A stretch of DNA of 32,778 nt from a virus. How positions within the stretch are numbered: position 1 is the stretch's first letter; each line of letters begins with the position of its first letter. The DNA lies in the IMG/VR virus record IMGVR_UViG_3300021356_000087, positions 1 through 32,778 of that record. One strand, given 5' to 3'. Both the position numbers and the translations under genes were made by a program. Below are positions 5,382-32,778 of this stretch, in pieces. Below the pieces are notes generated by a model. That model was given only the letters and a program-made list of their open reading frames with translations. It made no database searches and was not told where the DNA came from.

Positions 5382-5444
5382 TTTATAATAAGTTAATCTG
5401 AATGTTGACGTTGAAAGATATATACAAAAAAGAATATCTTTTAT
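5382..5444 (+). promoter_or_regulatory. Intergenic leader with GATATATAC motif and small hairpin
   Basis: This gap separates the deaminase-helicase operon from the tail block. It contains GATATATAC at 5417-5425, the same nine bases as at 28327-28335. A 7-bp inverted repeat (AAGATAT 5415-5421 with ATATCTT 5434-5440) lies just before the ATG at 5445. No Shine-Dalgarno is present. A phage late promoter or a weak terminator/processing hairpin are both possible. The assignment is inference from recurrence and position. Confidence 0.4.
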
Positions 5445-7211
5445 ATGGCATCAGTATTTCAAGGCATTAAAAACGGGCTTAAAGAGTATAGAGATTTAGC
5501 TACAGGAGAAGTTAAGTCATTTAGTGAAAATTTAAGTGATGCTTTTGGTTTATCGCCAGAAGATGCCGATTTAGAAGCGGCTAAGCAGGGAGAAACTAAT
5601 CTTAACCCTGATTTATCTTCTTCTGAAAATTTAAGTGCAGTATATAGCGATCCTATTTGGAAGTCTGGAGATACCGAATCTAATGGAGATGAGCAAGCTA
5701 TTCCTAAGGCTTCAACTGAGCCAATACAAGGTAAAAAGTATGTTACTGATGTAAATGGCACTAGCAATAAAGAAACTATAGATCCAGGTAGAGCTAGACA
5801 GAGCGCTTTTAGCGGTTGGAGTTTATTTAGATATAAGTCTAAGGCCTTAGGAAATACCGAAGATAATAGTAACGTGCCTAAATATAACGTATCGGAGTAT
5901 AAAGATAGCGATATTACGGGTTTAACTAGTCCAACGGCTAAGCGAATAGTTAATTGGTCTCAAGATGAAAAGAATGACGGATGTGCATACAGCCTTAGGG
6001 ATTTTGTGCAATGTGAACATTATGGTCTTATTCCAAATAATTATATGCTTACGTTAAGAAGATTTCCTTTTCCAGCACCTGACGATATTTTTAATCCTAA
6101 AACCTTTTCTAGCAAACAACAAACCTTTGTAGAAACAGGTCAGCCTGATATAGCTAGAGCTATAACATGGATGAGCCCTACTTTAGGCAACGAACTTAAA
6201 GAAATATTTTCATTTGGCGTAGGATATAGTTGGAAAGATGTAGAGGCTCAGGTTCAAACTGCCCAGTCTAGCACGGATAGAGGTAAGGTTGGTGCATTTA
6301 TGGAGTCGAATCCAATACTAAAAGCAATAGAGGCTGGAAATGAAGGTCTAGACCCTGTCTCTGCTAGAAGAAAGGAGCAACTTGGCGAAGGGTACGATCC
6401 TCTACAAAGTACATATCCTAATCATGTTTATGGTCCACTTAATGTCATTAAAAGCATGATGGTTAGAGATAGGGGTATAAATTTTGACAAAGAGTTTACT
6501 CTTAATTTCTATTACGATCTTAAATCATATGGAAATACTAGCCCTAAAGCTGCATTTCTAGATACTTTATCTAATCTTCTTGTTTTAACAAGCAACAACG
6601 CACCTTTCTGGGGAGGAGCTGTTAGAGGTGTATCTAATGGAAAGGTTGGTAAGCCGTTTGGCGATATGAGTAAATTGGCCAGTGGAGATTATAAAGGTTT
6701 TTTTAATGGCATCAAGGATCAATTTTCTGAAATGGGTTCGAACCTATTGGGAGAAGTAAAAGGACTTCTACAAAATGGGGAAATGGGTGATATGATGAAT
6801 AACCTTATAGGCGGTCAACTTATGGACCTATTTGGTTCTCCACAAGGTGCTAGCGTATTAAACGCATTTTTAACAGGAGATCCTACGGGCCAATGGCATT
6901 TAACGGTTGGTAATCCAATGAACCCGGCCATGGTTATAGGTAACTTAGGTCTACAAAGTGCTAAATTTGAATTTAGTGGACCTATGGGCTATGAGGATTT
7001 TCCTACTAAGTTAAAGGTAACAGTAACTCTTAAGCCTGGTAGACCAAGAGATAAGTCTGAAATAGAAAGTATGTTTAATACTGGAAAGGGTAGAATGTAT
7101 ATTCTACCTGAAGATTCAGCGGGTGTTGCATATTACAATAAGTCTGCATATGGTAATAAAGAAATAAACAAAGGGGTGGCTGCAAGAGCATCTGAATCTT
7201 CACTAGGATAA
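5445..7211 (+). CDS. Tail/baseplate structural protein, 588 aa
   Basis: The first gene of the tail block. The N-terminal 150 residues are low-complexity and charged. The central part has a Phe-rich region (RRFPFPAPDDIF, TWMSPTLGNELKEIFSFGVG). Residues about 351-393 contain the segment FYYDLKSYGN..FLDTLSNLL..NNAPFWGGAVR. About 482-501 hold GQWHLTVGNPMNP, followed by a beta-rich C-terminal domain. From memory, similar strings occur in tail proteins of large Bacteroidota phages, and the C-terminal layout could correspond to T4 gp48/gp54-type tube-initiation proteins; I could not verify this. A Gly/Met/Leu-rich helical segment between about residues 425 and 470 is unusual and hydrophobic. It is coupled to the LysM gene, sharing one base at the stop/start. 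Confidence 0.6.
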   Translation: MASVFQGIKNGLKEYRDLATGEVKSFSENLSDAFGLSPEDADLEAAKQGETNLNPDLSSSENLSAVYSDPIWKSGDTESNGDEQAIPKASTEPIQGKKYVTDVNGTSNKETIDPGRARQSAFSGWSLFRYKSKALGNTEDNSNVPKYNVSEYKDSDITGLTSPTAKRIVNWSQDEKNDGCAYSLRDFVQCEHYGLIPNNYMLTLRRFPFPAPDDIFNPKTFSSKQQTFVETGQPDIARAITWMSPTLGNELKEIFSFGVGYSWKDVEAQVQTAQSSTDRGKVGAFMESNPILKAIEAGNEGLDPVSARRKEQLGEGYDPLQSTYPNHVYGPLNVIKSMMVRDRGINFDKEFTLNFYYDLKSYGNTSPKAAFLDTLSNLLVLTSNNAPFWGGAVRGVSNGKVGKPFGDMSKLASGDYKGFFNGIKDQFSEMGSNLLGEVKGLLQNGEMGDMMNNLIGGQLMDLFGSPQGASVLNAFLTGDPTGQWHLTVGNPMNPAMVIGNLGLQSAKFEFSGPMGYEDFPTKLKVTVTLKPGRPRDKSEIESMFNTGKGRMYILPEDSAGVAYYNKSAYGNKEINKGVAARASESSLG

Positions 7212-12016: not shown

Positions 12017-12741
12017 TGGCATTTAGCACCTTTAAAACAAATATGACTCTGTTCTTTCAACAGAAAAATGGCACAGCAAGCGGAGTTATTCCACCTGAAG
12101 ATATGCCTGTTTCTGATATGATCGAAATTCCAGATCCTCAAGATCCAGAAAAAACAATAGAAGTTTTAGATACCGATAAGGAGTTAAGGAAACTAGCAAG
12201 AGCAATAGCGGATGAATATCACCTTGCAGTTGGTACAGCATATCAACAAAAGGGAGGCACTTCTAGACCTATAAACCCTGCGATATACAATGGCCCTATG
12301 AAGGCAGCTAAAGAGGGTATTTTTCTTGCTATTCTTGCCGTTCTAAAGGTTATGCATTCCGATAAAGGACCAAAACCATCTACTGTTTTGATGTTACCTA
12401 TAGGAGCGGCTGTAATAGCTTATTGGTCTACTGCTCTAGTTCCTGGCTCATTCTTACCAGTGCCTATGCCAGTTACTCCACCATATACTGCACCAAGTCC
12501 CGGTTCTATAGTGTTATTTCCAGGGAATCCAAGGCCAATAGCTAAGGGGTTTAAGGATGCTTTTTCAAAATATGATAATGAAAGAGATTTTAACACAGCA
12601 CTTTCTAAAATGCTAGACGATATCATAAAAGGATTTGAAGACCATCTTGCTAGCGTAAGCGGTATCTATGTTGGTTTAGTTCCTGCCGGCCCTGCTATTA
12701 TTCCTACGGTGACACCGTGGAAAGGAGTCAAAGTTCAATGA
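12016..12741 (+). CDS. Hypothetical tail-block protein with hydrophobic Pro/Gly-rich centre, 241 aa
   Basis: The start overlaps the previous TAA. After a charged N terminus, residues about 123-149 are strongly hydrophobic (VLMLPIGAAVIAYW). A Pro/Gly/Ser-rich stretch follows (about 141-173, with repeated VP, PP and PSPG). The C-terminal 60 residues contain a helix and another Pro/Val-rich end (IYVGLVPAGPAIIPTVTPW). It could be an assembly or membrane-interacting protein, since the hydrophobic segment could span a membrane. There is no signal peptide. The family is unknown. Confidence 0.65.
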   Translation: MAFSTFKTNMTLFFQQKNGTASGVIPPEDMPVSDMIEIPDPQDPEKTIEVLDTDKELRKLARAIADEYHLAVGTAYQQKGGTSRPINPAIYNGPMKAAKEGIFLAILAVLKVMHSDKGPKPSTVLMLPIGAAVIAYWSTALVPGSFLPVPMPVTPPYTAPSPGSIVLFPGNPRPIAKGFKDAFSKYDNERDFNTALSKMLDDIIKGFEDHLASVSGIYVGLVPAGPAIIPTVTPWKGVKVQ

Positions 12742-12776: not shown

Positions 12777-14072
12777 ATGTCACAAAAAAAATCAAGGCCT
12801 AGAATCAATAAGAAGGCCATCGAGGAGGTTGAAGTAACCCAACCAGAGTCAACGACTCAAGAACAAACTGAAGTAAAGATCGAAAACGAGAGAGATCGCT
12901 GGACACTTGATAACGGCGAGTTTGACTGGGACGGTTATGCTGCAGATTGCCCAAAAACCCTTAGAACTCCAAATCCACATGTTAAAACTCAAAGTAACGA
13001 TAAGGTGTTTTCTAGAGAGTCATATGCTCAAGAGTTCTATGATATTCTAATCAACAAGGATAAAGAAAAAGATTTTGTTCCTAAGTTGAAAGTCGGAACT
13101 ATCTATGATGGTAAAGTTTATGGTATCAACGAGACTCATGCTACAGTCGATGTAAACTATCGTCAACTTGTCTTCGTTAAGCTTTCTAAGGAGGATCCTC
13201 AATACAGAGACGTCAGACCAGGAGAAGAGGTTTCGGTTCTTATAACCGAAGGTTCCAACGACGACGAAAGAGGCAATATTATAGGAACCATATCGGGCGG
13301 CATGCGCCAACGTATCTTTATGGACCTAAGAGAAGGCATCGACTCTGCCGACACAGCTTGGACTGGTGTTGTTAAGGAAATGATTTCTGCTGGAGGATAT
13401 GTTGTTAACGTACAAGGTGTAGACTGCTTTATGCCGGGTTCTCTTGCTGGTATCAATAAGCTTCATGACTTTGAAGCCATTGTTGGTCAAGAGCTTTACG
13501 TTGTACCTGTTTCATTCTCACAAGATAGAGGCACAATCGTTGTCTCACACAGAAAGTATTTACAAGCTATGATTCCTGTCGAGATTTCAAAGCTTCGTGA
13601 GAACATTACCGATAGAATTACAGGTACTGTCACTGGTACTGCAAAGTACGGAGTCTTTTGTGAGTTTAACACTTGCTTGACGGGTATGATTCACGTCAAT
13701 GACTTAGATGAAGAAACCTTTAAGAGACATAAGTCACAGAGCATTAAGCCGGGTGAAGAGATTGAATTCTTGGTTAAAGAGATTGTATCCAATACTAAGA
13801 TTACTTTAACTCAAAAGACACTTGAAGAAACTAATCCATGGATCAATATACTTGAAAGATACAAAGTTCCTAGCGTAGTTGACGCTAAAGTTAAAGCTGT
13901 TAAGGACTACGGCATCTTTGTAACTCTTGAAGAAGGCGTTGTTGGTTTACTTCATATCAGTGAAGTCGGAGAAGACCTAATTAAGGTATTCAAAAACGGA
14001 GATAACATTACCGTTCAAGTAACTAGAATCGATCCAGAAACTAGAAAGGTATTCTTGAAGTTACCATCATAA
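12777..14072 (+). CDS. S1-repeat RNA-binding protein (ribosomal protein S1-like), four S1 domains
   Basis: The 431-aa protein has four S1 (OB-fold RNA-binding) domains at about residues 103-175, 194-262, 280-348 and 364-430. The last two are the clearest (GTVTGTAKYGVF with GMIHVNDL; KVKAVKDYGIFVTLEEGVVGLLH). Bacterial S1 usually has six, so this is a shortened version. The N-terminal 100 residues are charged and contain NGEFDWDGYAADC (47-59). From memory, Bacteroidota S1 proteins carry a similar DEFDWD-type motif near the start. S1 binds mRNA and helps the 30S subunit initiate where Shine-Dalgarno signals are absent. This copy could assist translation of phage mRNA or bind its own RNA. It lies inside the baseplate block, which is an odd place. 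Domain assignment is firm; role is inferred. Confidence 0.9.
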   Translation: MSQKKSRPRINKKAIEEVEVTQPESTTQEQTEVKIENERDRWTLDNGEFDWDGYAADCPKTLRTPNPHVKTQSNDKVFSRESYAQEFYDILINKDKEKDFVPKLKVGTIYDGKVYGINETHATVDVNYRQLVFVKLSKEDPQYRDVRPGEEVSVLITEGSNDDERGNIIGTISGGMRQRIFMDLREGIDSADTAWTGVVKEMISAGGYVVNVQGVDCFMPGSLAGINKLHDFEAIVGQELYVVPVSFSQDRGTIVVSHRKYLQAMIPVEISKLRENITDRITGTVTGTAKYGVFCEFNTCLTGMIHVNDLDEETFKRHKSQSIKPGEEIEFLVKEIVSNTKITLTQKTLEETNPWINILERYKVPSVVDAKVKAVKDYGIFVTLEEGVVGLLHISEVGEDLIKVFKNGDNITVQVTRIDPETRKVFLKLPS

Positions 14073-14086
14073 TATGATGCCATAGT

Positions 14087-14124
14087 TAGACTGATATATA
14101 CCATAACAAAGATATATCGGTCTA
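14087..14124 (+). promoter_or_regulatory. Long inverted repeat just before amidoligase-like gene
   Basis: TAGACTGATATAT (14087-14099) pairs with ATATATCGGTCTA (14112-14124), 13 bp with one wobble and a 12-nt loop. It ends one base before the ATG at 14126. It contains GATATATA at 14093 and GATATAT at 14111. There is no T-run, so a simple terminator is less likely. An operator, a processing site, or a translational block on the next gene are options. Confidence 0.6.
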
Positions 14125-14125
14125 G

Positions 14126-15439
14126 ATGAACAAACTTCATAAAAATTCTAATAGAGCAGAGATACTCAACGCATCATTGTGCGGAGTAGAGTTCGAGTTT
14201 TATTCCAAATTGGGCCTAAAAGAGACTACCAAGCAATTGGAGGATCTTTTAGGCCGCTCTATTAGTATAGAAGATAAAGCTCACTCTGATTTTGAACCGA
14301 CCGATAAGGAGTTCAAAATCGAGCCTGACATGTCGGGCGGTAAGGGACTAATGGAGCTGGTTACTGGCGCTATGCCTTATAGAAATGCCAGAATTATGAT
14401 GATTAAGGTGCTGGGCTGGATCAGAGAAAATGGTTACACAACTGAAAGATCTGGTATTCACCTTAACTTATCGTTTGATAAAGACTACTTAGAAGATAAG
14501 AATATGGTATCTAAGATGAACACTCTTAAGTTTATCTTAGACTTTAATGAGAAGCAGGTCTATAACCTATTTCCAGACAGAGAAAACTCGGTTTACGCCA
14601 AAAGCATCAAGTGGGTTATGCCAAAGGTCGATGCATTCCACTATGATTCGGTCAATACTTCTATTCATAACTACGATTTCCCGAATACCAAGTATTATGG
14701 AATCAACTTTGAGAAGAAGCTTAAGAATTATCTAGAGTTTAGATATCTGGGTGGAAAAAACTATGAGCAAAGGCAAGATGATATCTTTTATCTTTGGGAG
14801 TCCTTTGTTATGACTATTTGGAAGTCATGCAATAATGTTAATTTTACAGAAGAGAACAAGTTAGAGCTTCGTAGAATTTTACATAAGAACGAGCCGGTTG
14901 CCCTTTCTTTAAGAGACTTTAGAAACGTAAATAAGAATTGGCCTAAGATAGAAATTCTAGTTGACCTTAACGACCATGGCGAGACCATTGATATGTACTG
15001 GGATCGTATGAAGCATAGGGTTATGGATCTAATAACTAAAGGTGGCATGACAGAAGGAATAGTTAACTATGACAGTGATATCTCTCATGTTCAGGTTAAG
15101 GATGGTAAGTTTCCAACTTGTTTCCAACTTGAAGGCTATGACTTTGTCGACTGCGAGATTCGTGGTAACGTAGAGAAAAGTGACTTATTTGGTTGCAAGG
15201 TTGAAGGATCTATGTTAACTAGATGCAATTTATATCAATCCACAGAAGTTAAAGAATCTAAAGTGGAATCTTGTTTTGTTCATGGTAGCTGTACTATCGT
15301 CAATAGTTTTGTCTTTGGCAGAGATGGCATATTTAAGGGTAAAATGAAAGGCGGCATATTTAGAGAAGGAATGATAACTAAAGATTCTAGGTTTGAAGAT
15401 GACGTAGAAGTCGTAGTTACTAAAAAAATAAAATCATAA
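14126..15439 (+). CDS. Putative amidoligase (glutamine-synthetase-like) fused to C-terminal beta-solenoid-like domain
   Basis: The 437-aa protein shows a motif order typical of amidoligase/COOH-NH2 ligases with a glutamine-synthetase-like fold. These are GVEFEF (20-25, two Glu), KIEPDMS (64-70), ELVTG (77-81), GIHLNLSF (110-117) and LEFRYLGG (203-210). They match the order ExE, E, E, H, ExR of the metal- and substrate-binding residues of glutamine synthetase. Such enzymes use ATP to join a carboxyl to an amine, typically on peptides. Residues about 230-325 are helical. Residues about 332-430 form a Cys-, Gly- and Val-rich run of short repeated strands that looks like a beta-solenoid, perhaps a binding or trimerisation module. 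It lies between the S1 gene and the neck-like gene. The enzymatic call is from motifs, and the substrate is unknown. Confidence 0.72.
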   Translation: MNKLHKNSNRAEILNASLCGVEFEFYSKLGLKETTKQLEDLLGRSISIEDKAHSDFEPTDKEFKIEPDMSGGKGLMELVTGAMPYRNARIMMIKVLGWIRENGYTTERSGIHLNLSFDKDYLEDKNMVSKMNTLKFILDFNEKQVYNLFPDRENSVYAKSIKWVMPKVDAFHYDSVNTSIHNYDFPNTKYYGINFEKKLKNYLEFRYLGGKNYEQRQDDIFYLWESFVMTIWKSCNNVNFTEENKLELRRILHKNEPVALSLRDFRNVNKNWPKIEILVDLNDHGETIDMYWDRMKHRVMDLITKGGMTEGIVNYDSDISHVQVKDGKFPTCFQLEGYDFVDCEIRGNVEKSDLFGCKVEGSMLTRCNLYQSTEVKESKVESCFVHGSCTIVNSFVFGRDGIFKGKMKGGIFREGMITKDSRFEDDVEVVVTKKIKS

Positions 15440-15440
15440 G

Positions 15441-16283
15441 ATGAGTGAAATCAGAAGCGGCAACGAAAGTGGCTTAAATACTCCTAAAAGCTTTGGTGAA
15501 GATTGTCAAGATCTGTTCTTAGACGAAATTGCCGATGAGCTTACAGGAGCATGTATGATTCCTGTTAACCTTCCTAAGAAGGAGGTCTTAAACATTATAA
15601 AGCGAGCAGTTAAGTGGTTCTATAAGAACTATGAATATTCTGTTAAGGAAAACTATTATCACATTCCCAATAGCGTATTTAGCACTGACTATTTTAAAAC
15701 TCATAGAGCTTTACATTTACCACAAGCTGCAAGTGATGGATCAGGTATGGTCTTCTCTGTTTATGGTCTTTATGACTTAGCTAGTGGTTGGAACCAACCG
15801 GGAGGAGGCTTAGATTTAAGATTTGAAAGTGGATCTGACTTTGCATTAGAGAGAATGCTTTTCAGAAACGTATACGATGGCGATGGAGCTGCTAGAGGTG
15901 CAGAAGAATTGCAATACTATGTAATTAATCAATCTATGGTGGATCTATCTAGACAAATCATGGAGAATCCTATTTCGTTCCACTTCTCGCAATTGACAGG
16001 CGAACTTAAGTTTATGGGTGATACACCTAAAGGAGATGTTATACTTGAGGTTTATGAGACTATTCCTAATTGCGCGCTTTACTCAGATGAGATATTCTTT
16101 AGATATGTTGCGGCTAAAGTTAAGATTTCTCTAGGTTCTAAGCTTGGTATCTTTAAGTTTGCTTTACCCGGTAACGTGGAGTTTGATTATTCAGAGATAA
16201 AATCTATGGGAGATGAAGAGCTTGCAGCTGTTATAGAAGAAATAAAAGGAGATGAAGGTGTCGATTGGATGATGCACTCATAA
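15441..16283 (+). CDS. Putative neck/head-completion protein (gp13-like)
   Basis: It starts one base after the amidoligase-like stop. The 280-aa protein has an N-terminal helical segment NLPKKEVLNIIKRAVKWFY (43-61). A middle part carries aromatic, Gly-rich loops (VYGLYDLASGWNQPGGG). A C-terminal helix is followed by the string KISLGSKLGIFKFALPGNVEF. A similar layout (N-terminal helix with acidic loop, terminal helix before LPGG) is known to me from neck proteins of T4-like phages. It probably closes the head or joins it to the tail. The assignment is by pattern memory and neighbourhood, and I am not certain. Confidence 0.5.
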   Translation: MSEIRSGNESGLNTPKSFGEDCQDLFLDEIADELTGACMIPVNLPKKEVLNIIKRAVKWFYKNYEYSVKENYYHIPNSVFSTDYFKTHRALHLPQAASDGSGMVFSVYGLYDLASGWNQPGGGLDLRFESGSDFALERMLFRNVYDGDGAARGAEELQYYVINQSMVDLSRQIMENPISFHFSQLTGELKFMGDTPKGDVILEVYETIPNCALYSDEIFFRYVAAKVKISLGSKLGIFKFALPGNVEFDYSEIKSMGDEELAAVIEEIKGDEGVDWMMHS

Positions 16284-16312: not shown

Positions 16313-16669
16313 ATGGAACTCTACATCAAGACAATAGGCGACCCTAATTTTGACCCGGTCAAAGTACAGAGCAATAGCGAGATAGCTCAGCTTATGACTC
16401 AAATAGAGACCATACTTTTTACAAATAAAAGAGAGGTTTTAGGAAAGCCACAGTTTGGATGTAACCTTGAAGATTTAGTCTATTCTCTTAATTATAATAA
16501 TAAGCAGATCAAAGAAACTATAGATGAGCAAATTGCAATGTTTTGTCCTCTTGCCCAAAAATATAACGTATCGGCTGAAGTCTCTTTTGTAAAAGGTACT
16601 GCAAGAGATATAGCTTACATAGATATAACTATAGATTCTAAATACCTATTACAGGTCTATATAAATTAA
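16313..16669 (+). CDS. Baseplate wedge protein gp25-like
   Basis: The 118-aa protein is of the GPW/gp25 family that forms the wedge core with gp6 and gp53 in T4 and P2-like tails. It carries TNKREVLGKPQFGCNLEDLVY at 38-58, with the family's typical Arg-Glu-x-x-Gly-x-Pro-x-(F/Y)-G core. Length is normal. The next gene is gp6-like, the same order as in T4 (25 then 6). The 29-base leader has no Shine-Dalgarno; it is AT-rich with AATAAAAAAG. The family call is firm. Confidence 0.88.
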   Translation: MELYIKTIGDPNFDPVKVQSNSEIAQLMTQIETILFTNKREVLGKPQFGCNLEDLVYSLNYNNKQIKETIDEQIAMFCPLAQKYNVSAEVSFVKGTARDIAYIDITIDSKYLLQVYIN

Positions 16670-16682
16670 ACATAACCATATA

Positions 16683-18524
16683 ATGGCTGAATTTAAATTT
16701 TTAGATACGACACGAGCAATAGCTTCTGACATTGTGGCAGATGCTAGGACTTATATAAGTCGTGTTTATGGTAGAGCAAATACTCTATTTACTACAGCTT
16801 CTCCCTTCTCACAAATATTAGAGGTTATGTCTGAGATAGGAGAATTCTTAATGTTCTACGTTGAGGATGCAACAGTAGAGCAAAACATTTACACTGCTCA
16901 ACAACCTGAGTCTATTTATGGACTATCTAGACTTGCAGGCCATGACCCAACTCGTGGTTTTGCAGCTTTCGGTGAGATTACATTTAGATGGGCAGCTGGG
17001 GTTGATCTAAGCAAAGTTGTTGGAGATGCTATCAACATACCTGCAAATACTAAGATAAAATTCGATCTTAATGGGTTGACCTATATGCTTAGAACTAATA
17101 AAGATCAGTTTAGAATAGAAAAATCTAACAATAGCACCTTTACTTGTTCTATTATACAAGGTGAAATAGAATCTCAAACAGTAACTGGAACGGGTGAAAA
17201 GCTACAATCTTTTAATATTCAAACCGGAGGATTGACCGACCATAACTTAGTTTCAGTATCTGTAAACGGAGAGCTATGGACTAAGTTTAATTCTCTATAT
17301 GAGATGTTACCCTCGGACAAAGGCTACATCGTTAAAACGGGTATCGGCGGAGGCCTCGACGTTTACTTCGGAAATGGTAACTTTGGTATGATGCCAGTTT
17401 CTGGTTCTTCTATTGAAATAGAATATATTAAGCACGATGGCGCAAAGGGTAACTTAGACGATTCAACAGACCTCACCTTTAAATGGGTTGATGAAGGATC
17501 TGACGCTTTAGGTAATTCTTATGACCTAAATAAGTTTTTACAGGCTAACGTTACTTCTTCTCCTAAAATGGGAGCTGACAGAGAATCAACTGAATTTACC
17601 AAGTTAATTGCTCCAATGGCATCTAAAAGTTTTGTCTTGGCAACACCCGATCACTATGAGTATTTCTTAGGTAGATATGGTATTTTCTCTTATATTGATG
17701 CATATAATACAGTTGATGACCAATACATTGACGACGATAACGTTATTTACATATTTGCAATTCCAGATGTTAAGCGAAAGTTGGCTAAAAATTTAGATTA
17801 CTTCTCATTGCCCATTAACGAAATGTTCTTTGATGCCAATGAATATAGTGCAATGGCTGGTGTTTTACAAGAATCTGGTCAACAAATGGTTACTACAGAA
17901 GTTAAGTTTGTAGAGCCTAAAGCTAGATATTATTCTATGGATATTTCTGTTAGATATTTTGAGGGCTTTAGAAAAGAAGACATATTCAATGACATAAGAG
18001 ATGTTGTATCTAACTACTTGTTGAACGTTACAAGAAGAGATAAGTTACCAAAGTCTGATATCATTTATATTTTAGAAGAAGTTGAAGGCGTAGATGCAGT
18101 TAACGTTACTTTTGTTTCTGAAACCGAAGAAACTGCAAGAAGATTAGGTTACTATGAGTCTGTAACCACTCAAGTTGTACCTCAACAGCCTATTGTTTTA
18201 GAAGATATAGGTAATGGTAAACAAAAATTTGTCTTCTTTAAGAAGGTTCAAGAAACCGAATTAGTTAACATTAACATGAACGACCCTATTCCTGCAGACG
18301 TTGCAGGCTTAGACGAATATGGTGATATTATTATGGAAAAAGAAGAGGTTGCTGTCTTTAGAGGAGGTTGGCTAGATAGAGACGGTCAACTTGTTAAAGA
18401 CATTCCTTCTATTAATGAAGACGCCGCTCTGACCGTTACTTTTGACGAAACCCCGGTACCTAGAACTGTTTACACTAGACTTCAAGCCGGAGATAGAAAA
18501 TCAATAGTTAGAAGATCCTCATGA
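16683..18524 (+). CDS. Baseplate wedge protein gp6-like (baseplate J family)
   Basis: The 613-aa protein resembles T4 gp6/P2 gpJ-type wedge proteins. There are helical N-terminal segments, then a beta-rich middle with INIPANTKIKFDLNG, then GIGGGLDVYFGNGNFG. Near residues 430-480 is an alpha/beta domain with DKLPKSDIIYILEEVEGVDAV. In the family, gp6 dimerises to link wedges into the baseplate ring. Its position right after gp25 supports this. The C-terminal 100 residues or so are an acidic/aromatic extension. The final bases overlap the next start by ATGA. Confidence 0.83.
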   Translation: MAEFKFLDTTRAIASDIVADARTYISRVYGRANTLFTTASPFSQILEVMSEIGEFLMFYVEDATVEQNIYTAQQPESIYGLSRLAGHDPTRGFAAFGEITFRWAAGVDLSKVVGDAINIPANTKIKFDLNGLTYMLRTNKDQFRIEKSNNSTFTCSIIQGEIESQTVTGTGEKLQSFNIQTGGLTDHNLVSVSVNGELWTKFNSLYEMLPSDKGYIVKTGIGGGLDVYFGNGNFGMMPVSGSSIEIEYIKHDGAKGNLDDSTDLTFKWVDEGSDALGNSYDLNKFLQANVTSSPKMGADRESTEFTKLIAPMASKSFVLATPDHYEYFLGRYGIFSYIDAYNTVDDQYIDDDNVIYIFAIPDVKRKLAKNLDYFSLPINEMFFDANEYSAMAGVLQESGQQMVTTEVKFVEPKARYYSMDISVRYFEGFRKEDIFNDIRDVVSNYLLNVTRRDKLPKSDIIYILEEVEGVDAVNVTFVSETEETARRLGYYESVTTQVVPQQPIVLEDIGNGKQKFVFFKKVQETELVNINMNDPIPADVAGLDEYGDIIMEKEEVAVFRGGWLDRDGQLVKDIPSINEDAALTVTFDETPVPRTVYTRLQAGDRKSIVRRSS

Positions 18525-28372: not shown

Positions 28373-31300
28373 ATGCCACCAATTCATACGAAGAGTATAC
28401 AGCTTTACTACAAGCCCCACGACGGTTTATCTTTATCGGCGGGCGACGCGGATCAACTTCCTACTTCTGTTGGTCCAATAACTTATTTCTATAGAGTGGG
28501 ATCTGATGATCCGGTTGGATCTGTAAATTGTTTTACTGTTTATAGTACTATTGCTGCATATTCTCAACATCCTGATGGCGTTTTAGATTTACCTGACCCA
28601 GAAGATGCTGAATTATTTGTAGGCGGACCCGGATGCCAAAACCCCAGATGGAGTATAGGTCAAATTGCGCCATTAGGTGTAAAGCTTTACTTCGATAATC
28701 AACTTCAAAATGAAGCAGCTCCTGGTAAATATAGCGCAACTCCATTTCCAGTAACTAATTTTGATCCAGCTGATAATGAAGATGCTATTGTTTATAGTTA
28801 CGATCCTCCAGTACAAGTAACTTCACACAACCCTAATTACATTTGGGAAACATATGCTGTGCTTCAGCCTGGTCAAGCTGGACAAGATCCAACCTTTGTT
28901 GATCAAATACAAACTAGATCTGTTAGCCCAATAAATCCGGTATTGGTAGAATTTACTGGCACTCCCGGACAGGTTTATCGTAAAGTTACTACAAGTCAAG
29001 GAGATTCTCCTTGTGATTTTTCTCAAATAGCTACATTGCTTAATGGTGTAAGTTACTTTCCAACTGAAGATGTTCCAGCGGGCGCAACACTAGAGGAAAT
29101 TGCAAATGCAGGCGTTCCTTTAATGGATTCCAACGGCGATATATTAGAATCTGGTTACTTTGCTAGTCAAGAATTTCCTAGTACCTCTAATGATGTAACT
29201 ATTTACGAAGCTACTGGTCTAATAAATGATTATACTATAAACTGGGAAGAATCATTATGCACTCAAGTTGTAGCACCAAATGAAACGGTTAGAGAATTTA
29301 CAGTTAAGTATGCTAACACTATATCTGTTGTTGTAGAGAATGTTACAACAATTGAAGATGTATTTACGGGTGTAAATCCCAATTCTAATCTATTTTGTGC
29401 AAATGGCAATGACTTTAGAATTTTTTATACTAATAACAACGTAGAATATAATTCTATGGAGGAGCTTATGTTAGCTCAAGAACCTATTTATACTACACCT
29501 AATGTTTTACCAGAAGGCGTTTTACCAGAGTATTGGCAGTTAATTAATGCGCCAGAAGGCTCTTATGGACTAGACGAAAACAGATACTATGTATACTTAA
29601 CTTCTGATCCAAATCCTTCTAGTGCCTTTGATGGATATAGTGTACCTGGATTTTATACACTTGGTCTATTGATGGGTCAATTTAGTGAATATGCGTTAGT
29701 AGATCCTAATTATCAACCAAGTAATTCTTATTTTCCTCCAGGAGCTCCTCCTTGTTTTTGTGGAGTTGAAAATATAAACTTACTTCAAGTTAAGACAATA
29801 GATTTAATTTATAGTGAATCTCAAAGTGACTTTTGTAATGTTAATTTAGCCAATCAAGCTCAACATACATTAACGTGTGCTTATTTAAATCCATTTGGAA
29901 CAGATGATTTAACTTTTGATGAAATTTTGTTAAATCAAATACCGTTGTATGAGTTTACTACAGAATATGGTGCTTATTATGGAACAGAAGAATTATTGTT
30001 AAATGGTTTCTTTAATCAAGAGATTGGATTTTGTTATCATTTCAACAAGCAGGCAGAGATCGATACTTCTAATGGATGGTTTGGTAGAAATCAAATAAAC
30101 ATTTCAGAAAATTATAATTCTCCTTTCGTTTGTCAAGGTACTCCTAGACAAATTAATGACTTGATAACAACAAACTTTTTTTGGAATTACTATTTTCCCG
30201 AGTATGATTTTTCTGATGAATTTTGTTATAGGCAAAAAACAGGACTTCTACCTCCAATACACTCTAGTTCCACTTTATATTATAATTTACATGCTGATCT
30301 TCCTGACCTTACATTAGATCAAATAGCAAAATATAACATAAAGCTTAGAACTACTTTACAAGGTGATGAAACTTTAATTACAGGTCCATATTCAGATGAC
30401 ACTGGTTATTATTATAAATGGGTTGCAAACTCAGATGGAATTAGTGGCCATTGGATAGGATTAAATTCTAACCAAATAGAATCATCAGCTTATATAACTG
30501 GGCCTATTCAGTGTAATTTAGAGCCCGTTCCTAATTATTTTGATACATTAAACGATAATACACTAGCCGAAACGGGAGGTCCAGATTACTTACTAGCATT
30601 TTATGTTTTTAGTTCATGTATTCCTGTTAACGGTCAATATACTCACTACTTAATATTCGGAGAGCATACTAACTTATCAGGAAATAATGTAAGTTATATG
30701 TCTGAGTTTACTGATGACATCGGTTTAAACTCTTCTTTCTATAGTTATGCATCCACTGATTTAAATTATGGTTGTAAAAAATATGTAGGCAGAATATTTG
30801 CATCATCTCCAGCACAAGCCGAAGAGCTAATGTCTTCTCAACTTGGGTATTTCCAAGGGGATATTCAGTTTGTTAGTCCAAGTACAATAGGCATAACTAG
30901 CCAAGGTACAGTATACTATTATGAAGGAGGATGTGATGATTGTCTTAACACAATTGACAATCCAGGTACTTATTATATTTTACCAGAGTTTGATGACGGT
31001 AGTGAAACTGAAGAGGTTGGACCTAGATTTGGATTAGAGCAAAACTATAACTTACATAATAACTCTAAGCCTCTTCTTAGAACTAATCCTAGGCTAACTG
31101 GAAATATTAAGCTCGTTACTGATTCTAGAGGAGAAATATACTTAGAATCAATAAATGCAAACAAAGATCTTTCAGACTCTCGTTACAAAAGATATGGAGT
31201 AAGCCCAGAAAGTGATTATTCATATGATGTTTCTAGATTCTTTAATGATAATAAGACTCCATATGATATGGTATATGAGACCAAAAGAAGAGCTTCTGAC

Positions 31301-32778
31301 CTTTCTGTCTTAGAATCATATGATTTACAATTCGAAGAAGATTATCAATATGGTACTAGGTTTAACAATTCTAAATTGTACGATGAAAACTTTAGAATAT
31401 TTGCTCCTATTCAAATAGACACAAATATACCTAAAACATTCGTTATTTATAGAGTTAATTCTCCTAAGCCAAATGTAAACTACAATGATTTAGGCTCTGA
31501 TAAGCAAGATAGAATCAAATCTATGTTAGCTAACGCTACTATAATCAAAACGTTTGATTTAACGGAGTCTTCTAAATTAGGTCAATATATTAGAAAGCAT
31601 GTCTATAACGAGTTTTTCCAAGACAGTCAGCTAACTGTTTCTTTTGAGAAAAATGAGCAAACATTCTTTAAGGGAATAGATTTGGTAAAAGGAGGCTTCT
31701 CTAGTAAGGGCGAATTTATTTACAAAGACTTTGTAGCTACTGATAAACCTTTGATTGAAGCAAATGACTTTATCACCGATGGGTTTAAAAGAAATAGAAT
31801 AGTATCTTCTAATATTCTAAACTTAGAATTTATGTTCGATGACGAAGAGGCTAGTGAATATTCGGTTAGTCGTTATTTTGGACTATTCGTAGATGAAATA
31901 CCCTCAGGTAAAGGTAAGATTCAAAGGGTTAATTCTGGTTTAATTAAGTTTAAGGATTTGACGTCCTTTATGTACTATGATAATTATCCTAATTCATCAT
32001 TTGACGGTGATACATTTGCTATACCATCTAGTCAAATGATGAGAGATATTCCAGTGTTAGGCTATGTAAAATGTGATACGCACTACCATAACATCAAAAA
32101 TGGAAGTGAGTGGAGCGCTGAAAACTATACACTAAAAGTTGATGATAACGGAGATGATATCAATAGATTCATAGGAATTAAAGATACTTTAACCACTGTA
32201 GAATTAGAAGAAAACAAAGGCGTAGGATATGATTTTGTTAAATTATCAATTACTGATATACCATTTAACGGTGATTCTATATCAGTTATAGAAAATAAAA
32301 AACAATCATATTGCATACGTCTAATTAGTCATGTTCCAGGATCCACTATGACTATAACAACTTCATATCCTGGATCTACAATGCAAATAAACTCGGGAGC
32401 TACTAAAGAAGAGGCTATTGACAATTTAGAAAATCAGCTATCTATATCTGGGTTATCAGTAGAAAGAGAAGGCGATACAGTATTTGTAAAGGAATTCAAT
32501 TCTTATTTTAACGATATTAATTTAGAGGTTTCTTCATCTAACCCTGCTCAAGTTGTTAAGGTTGAAAAAAACTATACTAGCGCTATTTTACTTGAAAACT
32601 TAATTACTGCGAACTCGGCTATTGATAAAGGCAGATGTACAGAAAGAGAATTCTCTAATCAAGGTAGTATTAAAGATGTAGTCGTAGCATTATCAGGGGC
32701 TATATCTAAGCAAGACGGTATGATTGCCTTTGTTAACAACAATGACGTATATGTTTATTCAGATAGAAACATAGGTTA
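28373..32778 (+). CDS. Giant structural/adhesion protein, 5' part, at least 1468 residues (stop beyond window)
   Basis: Reading codon by codon from the ATG at 28373, I met no stop to the window end. Its N-terminal part (about residues 80-830) contains about six degenerate modules near residues 93, 239, 362, 514, 647 and 811. The core is of the form (T/S)(L/F/M)xE(I/L)xxxxxPLY, usually with Cys-containing loops before or after it (GGPGCQNP, APPCFCG, GGCDDC). From about residue 897 a different region begins (KPLLRTNPRLTGNIK, then SYDVSRFFNDN, then ENFRIFAPIQID). It has mixed alpha/beta character and reaches the window end. The many Cys, Tyr and Asn and the repeat layout suggest an exposed receptor-binding or fibre protein, but this is inference. 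Confidence 0.8.
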   Translation, partial: MPPIHTKSIQLYYKPHDGLSLSAGDADQLPTSVGPITYFYRVGSDDPVGSVNCFTVYSTIAAYSQHPDGVLDLPDPEDAELFVGGPGCQNPRWSIGQIAPLGVKLYFDNQLQNEAAPGKYSATPFPVTNFDPADNEDAIVYSYDPPVQVTSHNPNYIWETYAVLQPGQAGQDPTFVDQIQTRSVSPINPVLVEFTGTPGQVYRKVTTSQGDSPCDFSQIATLLNGVSYFPTEDVPAGATLEEIANAGVPLMDSNGDILESGYFASQEFPSTSNDVTIYEATGLINDYTINWEESLCTQVVAPNETVREFTVKYANTISVVVENVTTIEDVFTGVNPNSNLFCANGNDFRIFYTNNNVEYNSMEELMLAQEPIYTTPNVLPEGVLPEYWQLINAPEGSYGLDENRYYVYLTSDPNPSSAFDGYSVPGFYTLGLLMGQFSEYALVDPNYQPSNSYFPPGAPPCFCGVENINLLQVKTIDLIYSESQSDFCNVNLANQAQHTLTCAYLNPFGTDDLTFDEILLNQIPLYEFTTEYGAYYGTEELLLNGFFNQEIGFCYHFNKQAEIDTSNGWFGRNQINISENYNSPFVCQGTPRQINDLITTNFFWNYYFPEYDFSDEFCYRQKTGLLPPIHSSSTLYYNLHADLPDLTLDQIAKYNIKLRTTLQGDETLITGPYSDDTGYYYKWVANSDGISGHWIGLNSNQIESSAYITGPIQCNLEPVPNYFDTLNDNTLAETGGPDYLLAFYVFSSCIPVNGQYTHYLIFGEHTNLSGNNVSYMSEFTDDIGLNSSFYSYASTDLNYGCKKYVGRIFASSPAQAEELMSSQLGYFQGDIQFVSPSTIGITSQGTVYYYEGGCDDCLNTIDNPGTYYILPEFDDGSETEEVGPRFGLEQNYNLHNNSKPLLRTNPRLTGNIKLVTDSRGEIYLESINANKDLSDSRYKRYGVSPESDYSYDVSRFFNDNKTPYDMVYETKRRASDLSVLESYDLQFEEDYQYGTRFNNSKLYDENFRIFAPIQIDTNIPKTFVIYRVNSPKPNVNYNDLGSDKQDRIKSMLANATIIKTFDLTESSKLGQYIRKHVYNEFFQDSQLTVSFEKNEQTFFKGIDLVKGGFSSKGEFIYKDFVATDKPLIEANDFITDGFKRNRIVSSNILNLEFMFDDEEASEYSVSRYFGLFVDEIPSGKGKIQRVNSGLIKFKDLTSFMYYDNYPNSSFDGDTFAIPSSQMMRDIPVLGYVKCDTHYHNIKNGSEWSAENYTLKVDDNGDDINRFIGIKDTLTTVELEENKGVGYDFVKLSITDIPFNGDSISVIENKKQSYCIRLISHVPGSTMTITTSYPGSTMQINSGATKEEAIDNLENQLSISGLSVEREGDTVFVKEFNSYFNDINLEVSSSNPAQVVKVEKNYTSAILLENLITANSAIDKGRCTEREFSNQGSIKDVVVALSGAISKQDGMIAFVNNNDVYVYSDRNIG

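Follow-up and report, generated by a model that had tools for sequence, protein, structure and literature searches.

Amidoligases are common in phages: with one Porphyromonas phage enzyme as query, 227 phage records were recovered. Enzymes of this family use ATP to activate a carboxylate as an acyl phosphate, which an amine then attacks. The Amidoligase_2 (PF12224) phages considered here are phiEco32, LUZ24/PaP3/tf, TC6, and Arthrobacter, Porphyromonas and Bacillus phages, and their enzymes share a glutamine-synthetase-like domain with the motif set ExE ... D-x-S ... E ... H ... R ... N ... E-x-R. Known phage amidoligase genes mostly occur in cassettes with partner enzymes, among non-structural genes. 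In phiEco32 and several other phages, the amidoligase lies beside genes for a COOH-NH2 ligase, an amidotransferase, an ATP-grasp protein or a cyclotransferase, and the phiEco32 cassette includes an ATP-grasp gene resembling those for S6 modification. The cassettes of several podoviruses have been proposed to alter peptidoglycan (PMC5498523).

Here we analysed a viral record, 32,778 bases long (the window), which carries a predicted amidoligase gene of a different arrangement within a same-strand series of structural genes (Table 1). The window protein has the same motif set and domain as the known phage enzymes. In contrast to them, its gene stands without partner enzymes in a tail operon, and the protein ends in a predicted beta-helix that is absent from all ten reference amidoligases aligned. 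Phage amidoligases as such are already known; the beta-helix fusion and its tail-operon position are new within the literature searched, where neither an amidoligase-pentapeptide fusion nor this position is described. The sole paper with both terms, amidoligase and pentapeptide, treats another superfamily, as judged by its title and abstract. This is consistent with the original prediction, which was aware of no function reported for a fusion of this kind, and the reading frame is also exactly as that prediction had placed it.

Table 1. Features of the fusion gene and its surroundings in the window
Feature	Position	Strand	Basis
Amidoligase-beta-helix fusion gene	14126..15439	+	Complete ORF, ATG start, 437 aa
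Predicted catalytic domain, residues 8-240	14147..14845	+	Glutamine-synthetase-like fold; E22, E24, D68, E77, H112, R152, N194, E204, R206
Connecting region, mainly helical, residues 241-304	14846..15037	+	Least conserved part; secondary structure and conservation by domain
Predicted right-handed beta-helix, pentapeptide-repeat-like, residues 305-437	15038..15436	+	Own model, five-residue period, Foldseek
GATATATAC element, candidate late promoter element	14093..14101	+	33 nt before fusion-gene start
S1-domain protein, conserved upstream neighbour	12777..14072	+	Pfam S1 E 5.1e-27, three stretches; synteny
Neck / head-tail adaptor (Ad2-like), conserved downstream neighbour	15441..16283	+	phrog_211 E 5.5e-11; synteny; 1 nt gap
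gp25-like (16313-16669) and gp6/J-like (16683-18524) baseplate wedge genes	16313..18524	+	PF04965 4.4e-6, just below cut-off; phrog_219 E 5.2e-29
Baseplate-hub-like protein	start 10523	+	Structural run upstream of S1 gene

A conserved gene family of large phages

The fusion gene is under strong purifying selection, as codon comparison with close relatives gave dN/dS values of ∼0.02-0.05 (synonymous sites are nearly saturated except in the closest pair). Relatives in IMG/VR numbered at least 242 with one protein query and at least 558 with an alignment query. A search for the same fusion and its neighbours in other large phages, suggested with the original prediction, found one full-length copy, at 31-40% identity, in each of five uncultured huge phages (LR756500, LR745206, LR756501, LR756504 and LR756502; 462-735 kb). 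The four larger of these records are megaphages treated as kin of the marine megaphage Mar_Mega_1 (PMC9723777). More distant relatives, homologous over the catalytic domain, are the amidoligase of Agrobacterium phage Atu_ph07 (AUZ94978) and two phrog_33777 proteins from Salicola phage SCTP-2. Unlike the window protein, these have a longer N-terminal part, and no pentapeptide match was found in them. The SCTP-2 pair consists of two tandem, distantly amidoligase-like paralogues, gp125 and gp124 (L081, 7023-10783), and an SCTP-2 protein used as query had zero matches in IMG/VR. At the sensitivity used, no relative that would point to a cellular or plasmid origin was present in GTDB contigs or plasmids.

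The family profile was unmatched in PTm1, Lak-B1, MA9V-1 and Vibrio D506, all of which have neck or S1 relatives, and the family therefore seems to be a clade trait. Since relatives of the neck and wedge proteins were found in Tenacibaculum, Chryseobacterium and Prevotella phages, there is a hint that the host belongs to the Bacteroidota.

Two predicted domains: an amidoligase and a beta-helix

An AlphaFold2 model built from a 35-sequence alignment (mean pLDDT 89.6, pTM 0.81) aligned with glutamine synthetase by VIA-align over 181 residues (Z 11.6, rmsd 3.4, model range 8-239). The two proteins share the catalytic fold at only ∼12-16% identity and differ in their flanking domains. Glutamine synthetases were also the top PDB matches in Foldseek (best E 1.8e-3, none under 0.001), while matches in a viral structure library were mostly named phage amidoligases and included one uncharacterised phage protein that matched the model over its full length (TM 0.85). 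Structure prediction had been proposed as a check on the amidoligase-like assignment, and the model does show a glutamine-synthetase-like fold, so that the refuting outcome named there, a fold without it, did not arise.

Residues E22, E24, E66, D68, S70, E77, H112, R152, N194, E204 and R206 were invariant in the 35-sequence non-redundant alignment, whose members are 30-85% identical to the window protein. The original prediction had read these ligands in glutamine-synthetase order as E22xE24, E66 or D68, E77, H112 and E204xR206. This order was upheld by the 35 homologues, but the choice it had left was settled against E66: in a second alignment including megaphage LR756504, E66 is replaced by Leu in one member whereas D68 never varies, and the known phage amidoligases concur, with an invariant D116 that agrees with D68. 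Therefore, E66 was dropped in favour of D68 as the conserved metal ligand. The usual second histidine of the HxH motif, present in most known phage amidoligases, is Asn114 in the window protein (i.e. HxN), and Asn in Atu_ph07 too.

Support for family membership came from profiles and relatives. A profile of ten known phage amidoligases matched in hhalign (97.8%, E 1.2e-12) and lined up at the invariant positions G-x-E-x-E, D-x-S, E, H, R, N and E-x-R. The window protein alone had no amidoligase match in Pfam (E≤1) or PHROG scans; against Amidoligase_2, with a cut-off of 22 bits, a relative at 61% identity scored 27.5 bits and the Atu_ph07 relative 30.2 bits, and 9/35 family members matched at E≤1. 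Pfam-based whole-record searches overlooked most of the family. The Amidoligase_2 residue set (ExE, D, E, H, R, N, E-x-R) is present in the window protein, and the fold in its model. Together, the fold, profile and motif tests agree with the original assignment and support a predicted glutamine-synthetase-like amidoligase domain at the N-terminus, for which catalysis and ligand roles would follow by homology. This domain is the best conserved part of the protein. A structural virion protein or chaperone that kept the amidoligase fold and lost catalysis would suit the location among tail genes and the beta-helix, but is highly improbable given this conservation and a whole motif set that is invariant in 35 sequences, down to 30% identity.

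The C-terminal domain was originally described as a beta-solenoid-like tail, and this can now be refined to a predicted right-handed beta-helix resembling pentapeptide-repeat proteins. Modelled alone (pLDDT 94.3), its strands fall mostly at five-residue steps, and among periods 3 to 7 only period 5 was enriched for hydrophobic residues (p 0.02-0.04 in the window protein alone; shared ancestry inflates the family z-score). The top Foldseek matches were MfpA, QnrB1 and AlbG (E about 1e-3), themselves right-handed beta-helices with a five-residue period. VIA Z scores of 8-10 are modest for repeats, and other right-handed beta-helices (antigen 43, a pectate lyase and a tailspike) matched at similar Z. 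Relatives match Pentapeptide_4 under its cut-off; the best relative shown reached 26.8 bits against a Pfam pentapeptide cut-off of 38, and the window protein was unmatched. The alignment also revealed a conserved cap, G-x-M-x-G-G-[IV]-[FY]-R-x-G.

Compared with pentapeptide-repeat proteins, the domain is short, below Pfam cut-offs and fused to an enzyme, with no sign of gyrase-targeting DNA mimicry. A Qnr/MfpA-like DNA-mimic role was rejected as unsupported, because the domain is short and only mildly acidic. A trimeric tail-spike helix was likewise set aside: despite the matches to other right-handed beta-helices, nothing supports the trimerisation suggested in the original prediction. We read the domain as a pentapeptide-repeat-like module that probably serves in docking.

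Position in the tail operon and a candidate late promoter

The original prediction had noted the place of the gene between an S1 gene and a neck gene, and this arrangement proved real and conserved. S1 lay upstream and neck downstream in 74/83 distinct proteins with enough flank, with gaps that were almost always 50-59 nt to S1 and mostly 1-4 nt to neck. When loci were retrieved through the neck protein, the amidoligase preceded neck in all 77 that were testable (this set is the nearest 80 loci and overlaps the amidoligase-based set). The S1-amidoligase-neck order is thus nearly fixed. In divergent phages the gene is relocated, usually still beside tail, neck or sheath-block genes (L083/L168, L084, L087, L086 and L173-L175), and in several megaphages it is apart from S1 and still adjoins tail genes. 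Three divergent loci (L085, L172 and L176) have no recognised structural gene near the amidoligase. Lak and further megaphages encode relatives of the S1-domain protein, and some of these are annotated as ribosomal protein S1. Porphyromonas phages offer another example of an amidoligase within a structural region, where a different enzyme (L177, 8923-9876) is encoded between portal/adaptor and annotated neck and tape-measure genes.

A conserved element stands between the S1 gene and the amidoligase. In 85/90 homologues (which are kin, hence not independent), its ATATATA core falls within the 60 nt that precede the start, compared with 2.0% of random windows. The window contains four copies of the 9-mer GATATATAC, three of which are in the scarce intergenic gaps (at 5417, 14093 and 28327), ahead of the genes that start at 5445, 14126 and 28373; variants lie near 12740 and 9291. 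The ORF at 28373 (28373-32776) is very long, with 1468 aa or more, and runs past the window end. The bare count in the window is not significantly enriched (4 versus 1.4 expected, matched by 9/100 shuffles), so the evidence for the element lies in where it occurs and in how it is conserved among homologues. The T4-type late promoter TATAAATA was not enriched. GATATATAC looks like a late promoter serving the amidoligase with the neck and baseplate genes, and is a candidate late promoter, before structural genes, of this phage group.

Proposed function and alternatives

Considering domain and context, modification of a tail or neck protein is the most economical reading, which makes plausible one of the targets offered in the original prediction, a virion protein. 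We propose, at a probability of about 0.45, that the fusion gene encodes an ATP-dependent Amidoligase_2-type enzyme which acts late and most likely modifies a tail or neck protein of the virion during assembly. A promoter-like element of its own would drive the gene late in infection, together with the neck and baseplate-wedge genes, and the pentapeptide-like beta-helix would dock the enzyme onto a protein partner. The N-terminal domain would activate a carboxylate by phosphorylation and couple it to an amine, with metal ions bound by E22, E24, D68, E77, H112 and E204 and with phosphate or substrate held by R152 and R206. The tail or neck protein would gain an amino acid or peptide, or an isopeptide cross-link. 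The stronger form of this proposal, a dedicated virion-assembly ligase of jumbo and megaphages, docked by its beta-helix, whose action would covalently modify or cross-link a tail or neck protein, is more tentative.

A hint in favour of a virion protein as substrate comes from Atu_ph07. Its relative is two genes away from the portal gene. With portal as gp198, the order of accessions would make it gp196, which falls in CDS 170-215. This stretch forms one of three gene clusters that encode many of the virion proteins identified by mass spectrometry (PMC6102473). Membership of a late operon does not in itself imply a virion substrate, because lysis proteins are also late. The three divergent loci without a nearby structural gene weigh against a virion-protein substrate, as does the peptidoglycan modification proposed in print for phage amidoligases (PMC5498523).

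The latter raises the alternative that the ligase acts on the host cell wall, adding amino acids to peptidoglycan stem peptides or rewiring them, and so blocks superinfection or prepares lysis, as proposed for cassettes of the phiEco32 and RIO-1 type. The window enzyme is in the same family as the cassette amidoligases, for which this role has been proposed in print in several podoviruses, but we consider it unlikely here. The phiEco32/LUZ24-type partners are not beside the fusion gene, whose conserved neighbours are S1 and neck. GATase_6 (amidotransferase) was absent from all 13 phage records tested, with positive controls, and GGACT (gamma-glutamyl cyclotransferase) exceeded its cut-off in three megaphages only, far from the amidoligase gene. 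Both the tail-operon position and the beta-helix also set the window gene apart from the cassette enzymes.

Glutamine-synthetase-like ligases often use small substrates, and the product could instead be a gamma-glutamyl or amino-acid conjugate, i.e. a signal, an inhibitor or a precursor for nucleotide modification. This is distinctly improbable, since partner metabolic genes are absent beside the amidoligase, its linkage to structural genes is fixed and the enzyme is fused to a beta-helix of a protein-binding type. The chances also appear slim that the ligase targets a cytosolic protein of translation, from host or phage, such as the phage S1 or a ribosomal protein, much as RimK adds glutamate to S6. 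Such a target would fit the conserved S1 neighbour and the S6-modification-like gene of the phiEco32 cassette, but the promoter-like element parts S1 from the amidoligase, and the megaphages with the gene away from S1 keep it by tail genes.

If a virion protein is indeed the target, ATP-dependent peptide ligation would be part of how megaphages build or stabilise their tails, and a dedicated virion-assembly ligase would represent enzymatic covalent virion maturation of a kind undescribed in the literature searched. If the host is the target instead, modification of its cell wall or proteins would be linked with morphogenesis, and not with the separate cassettes known so far. In both cases, a function class is given to a conserved protein family that the largest known phages carry and for which the records and literature searched offer no characterisation.
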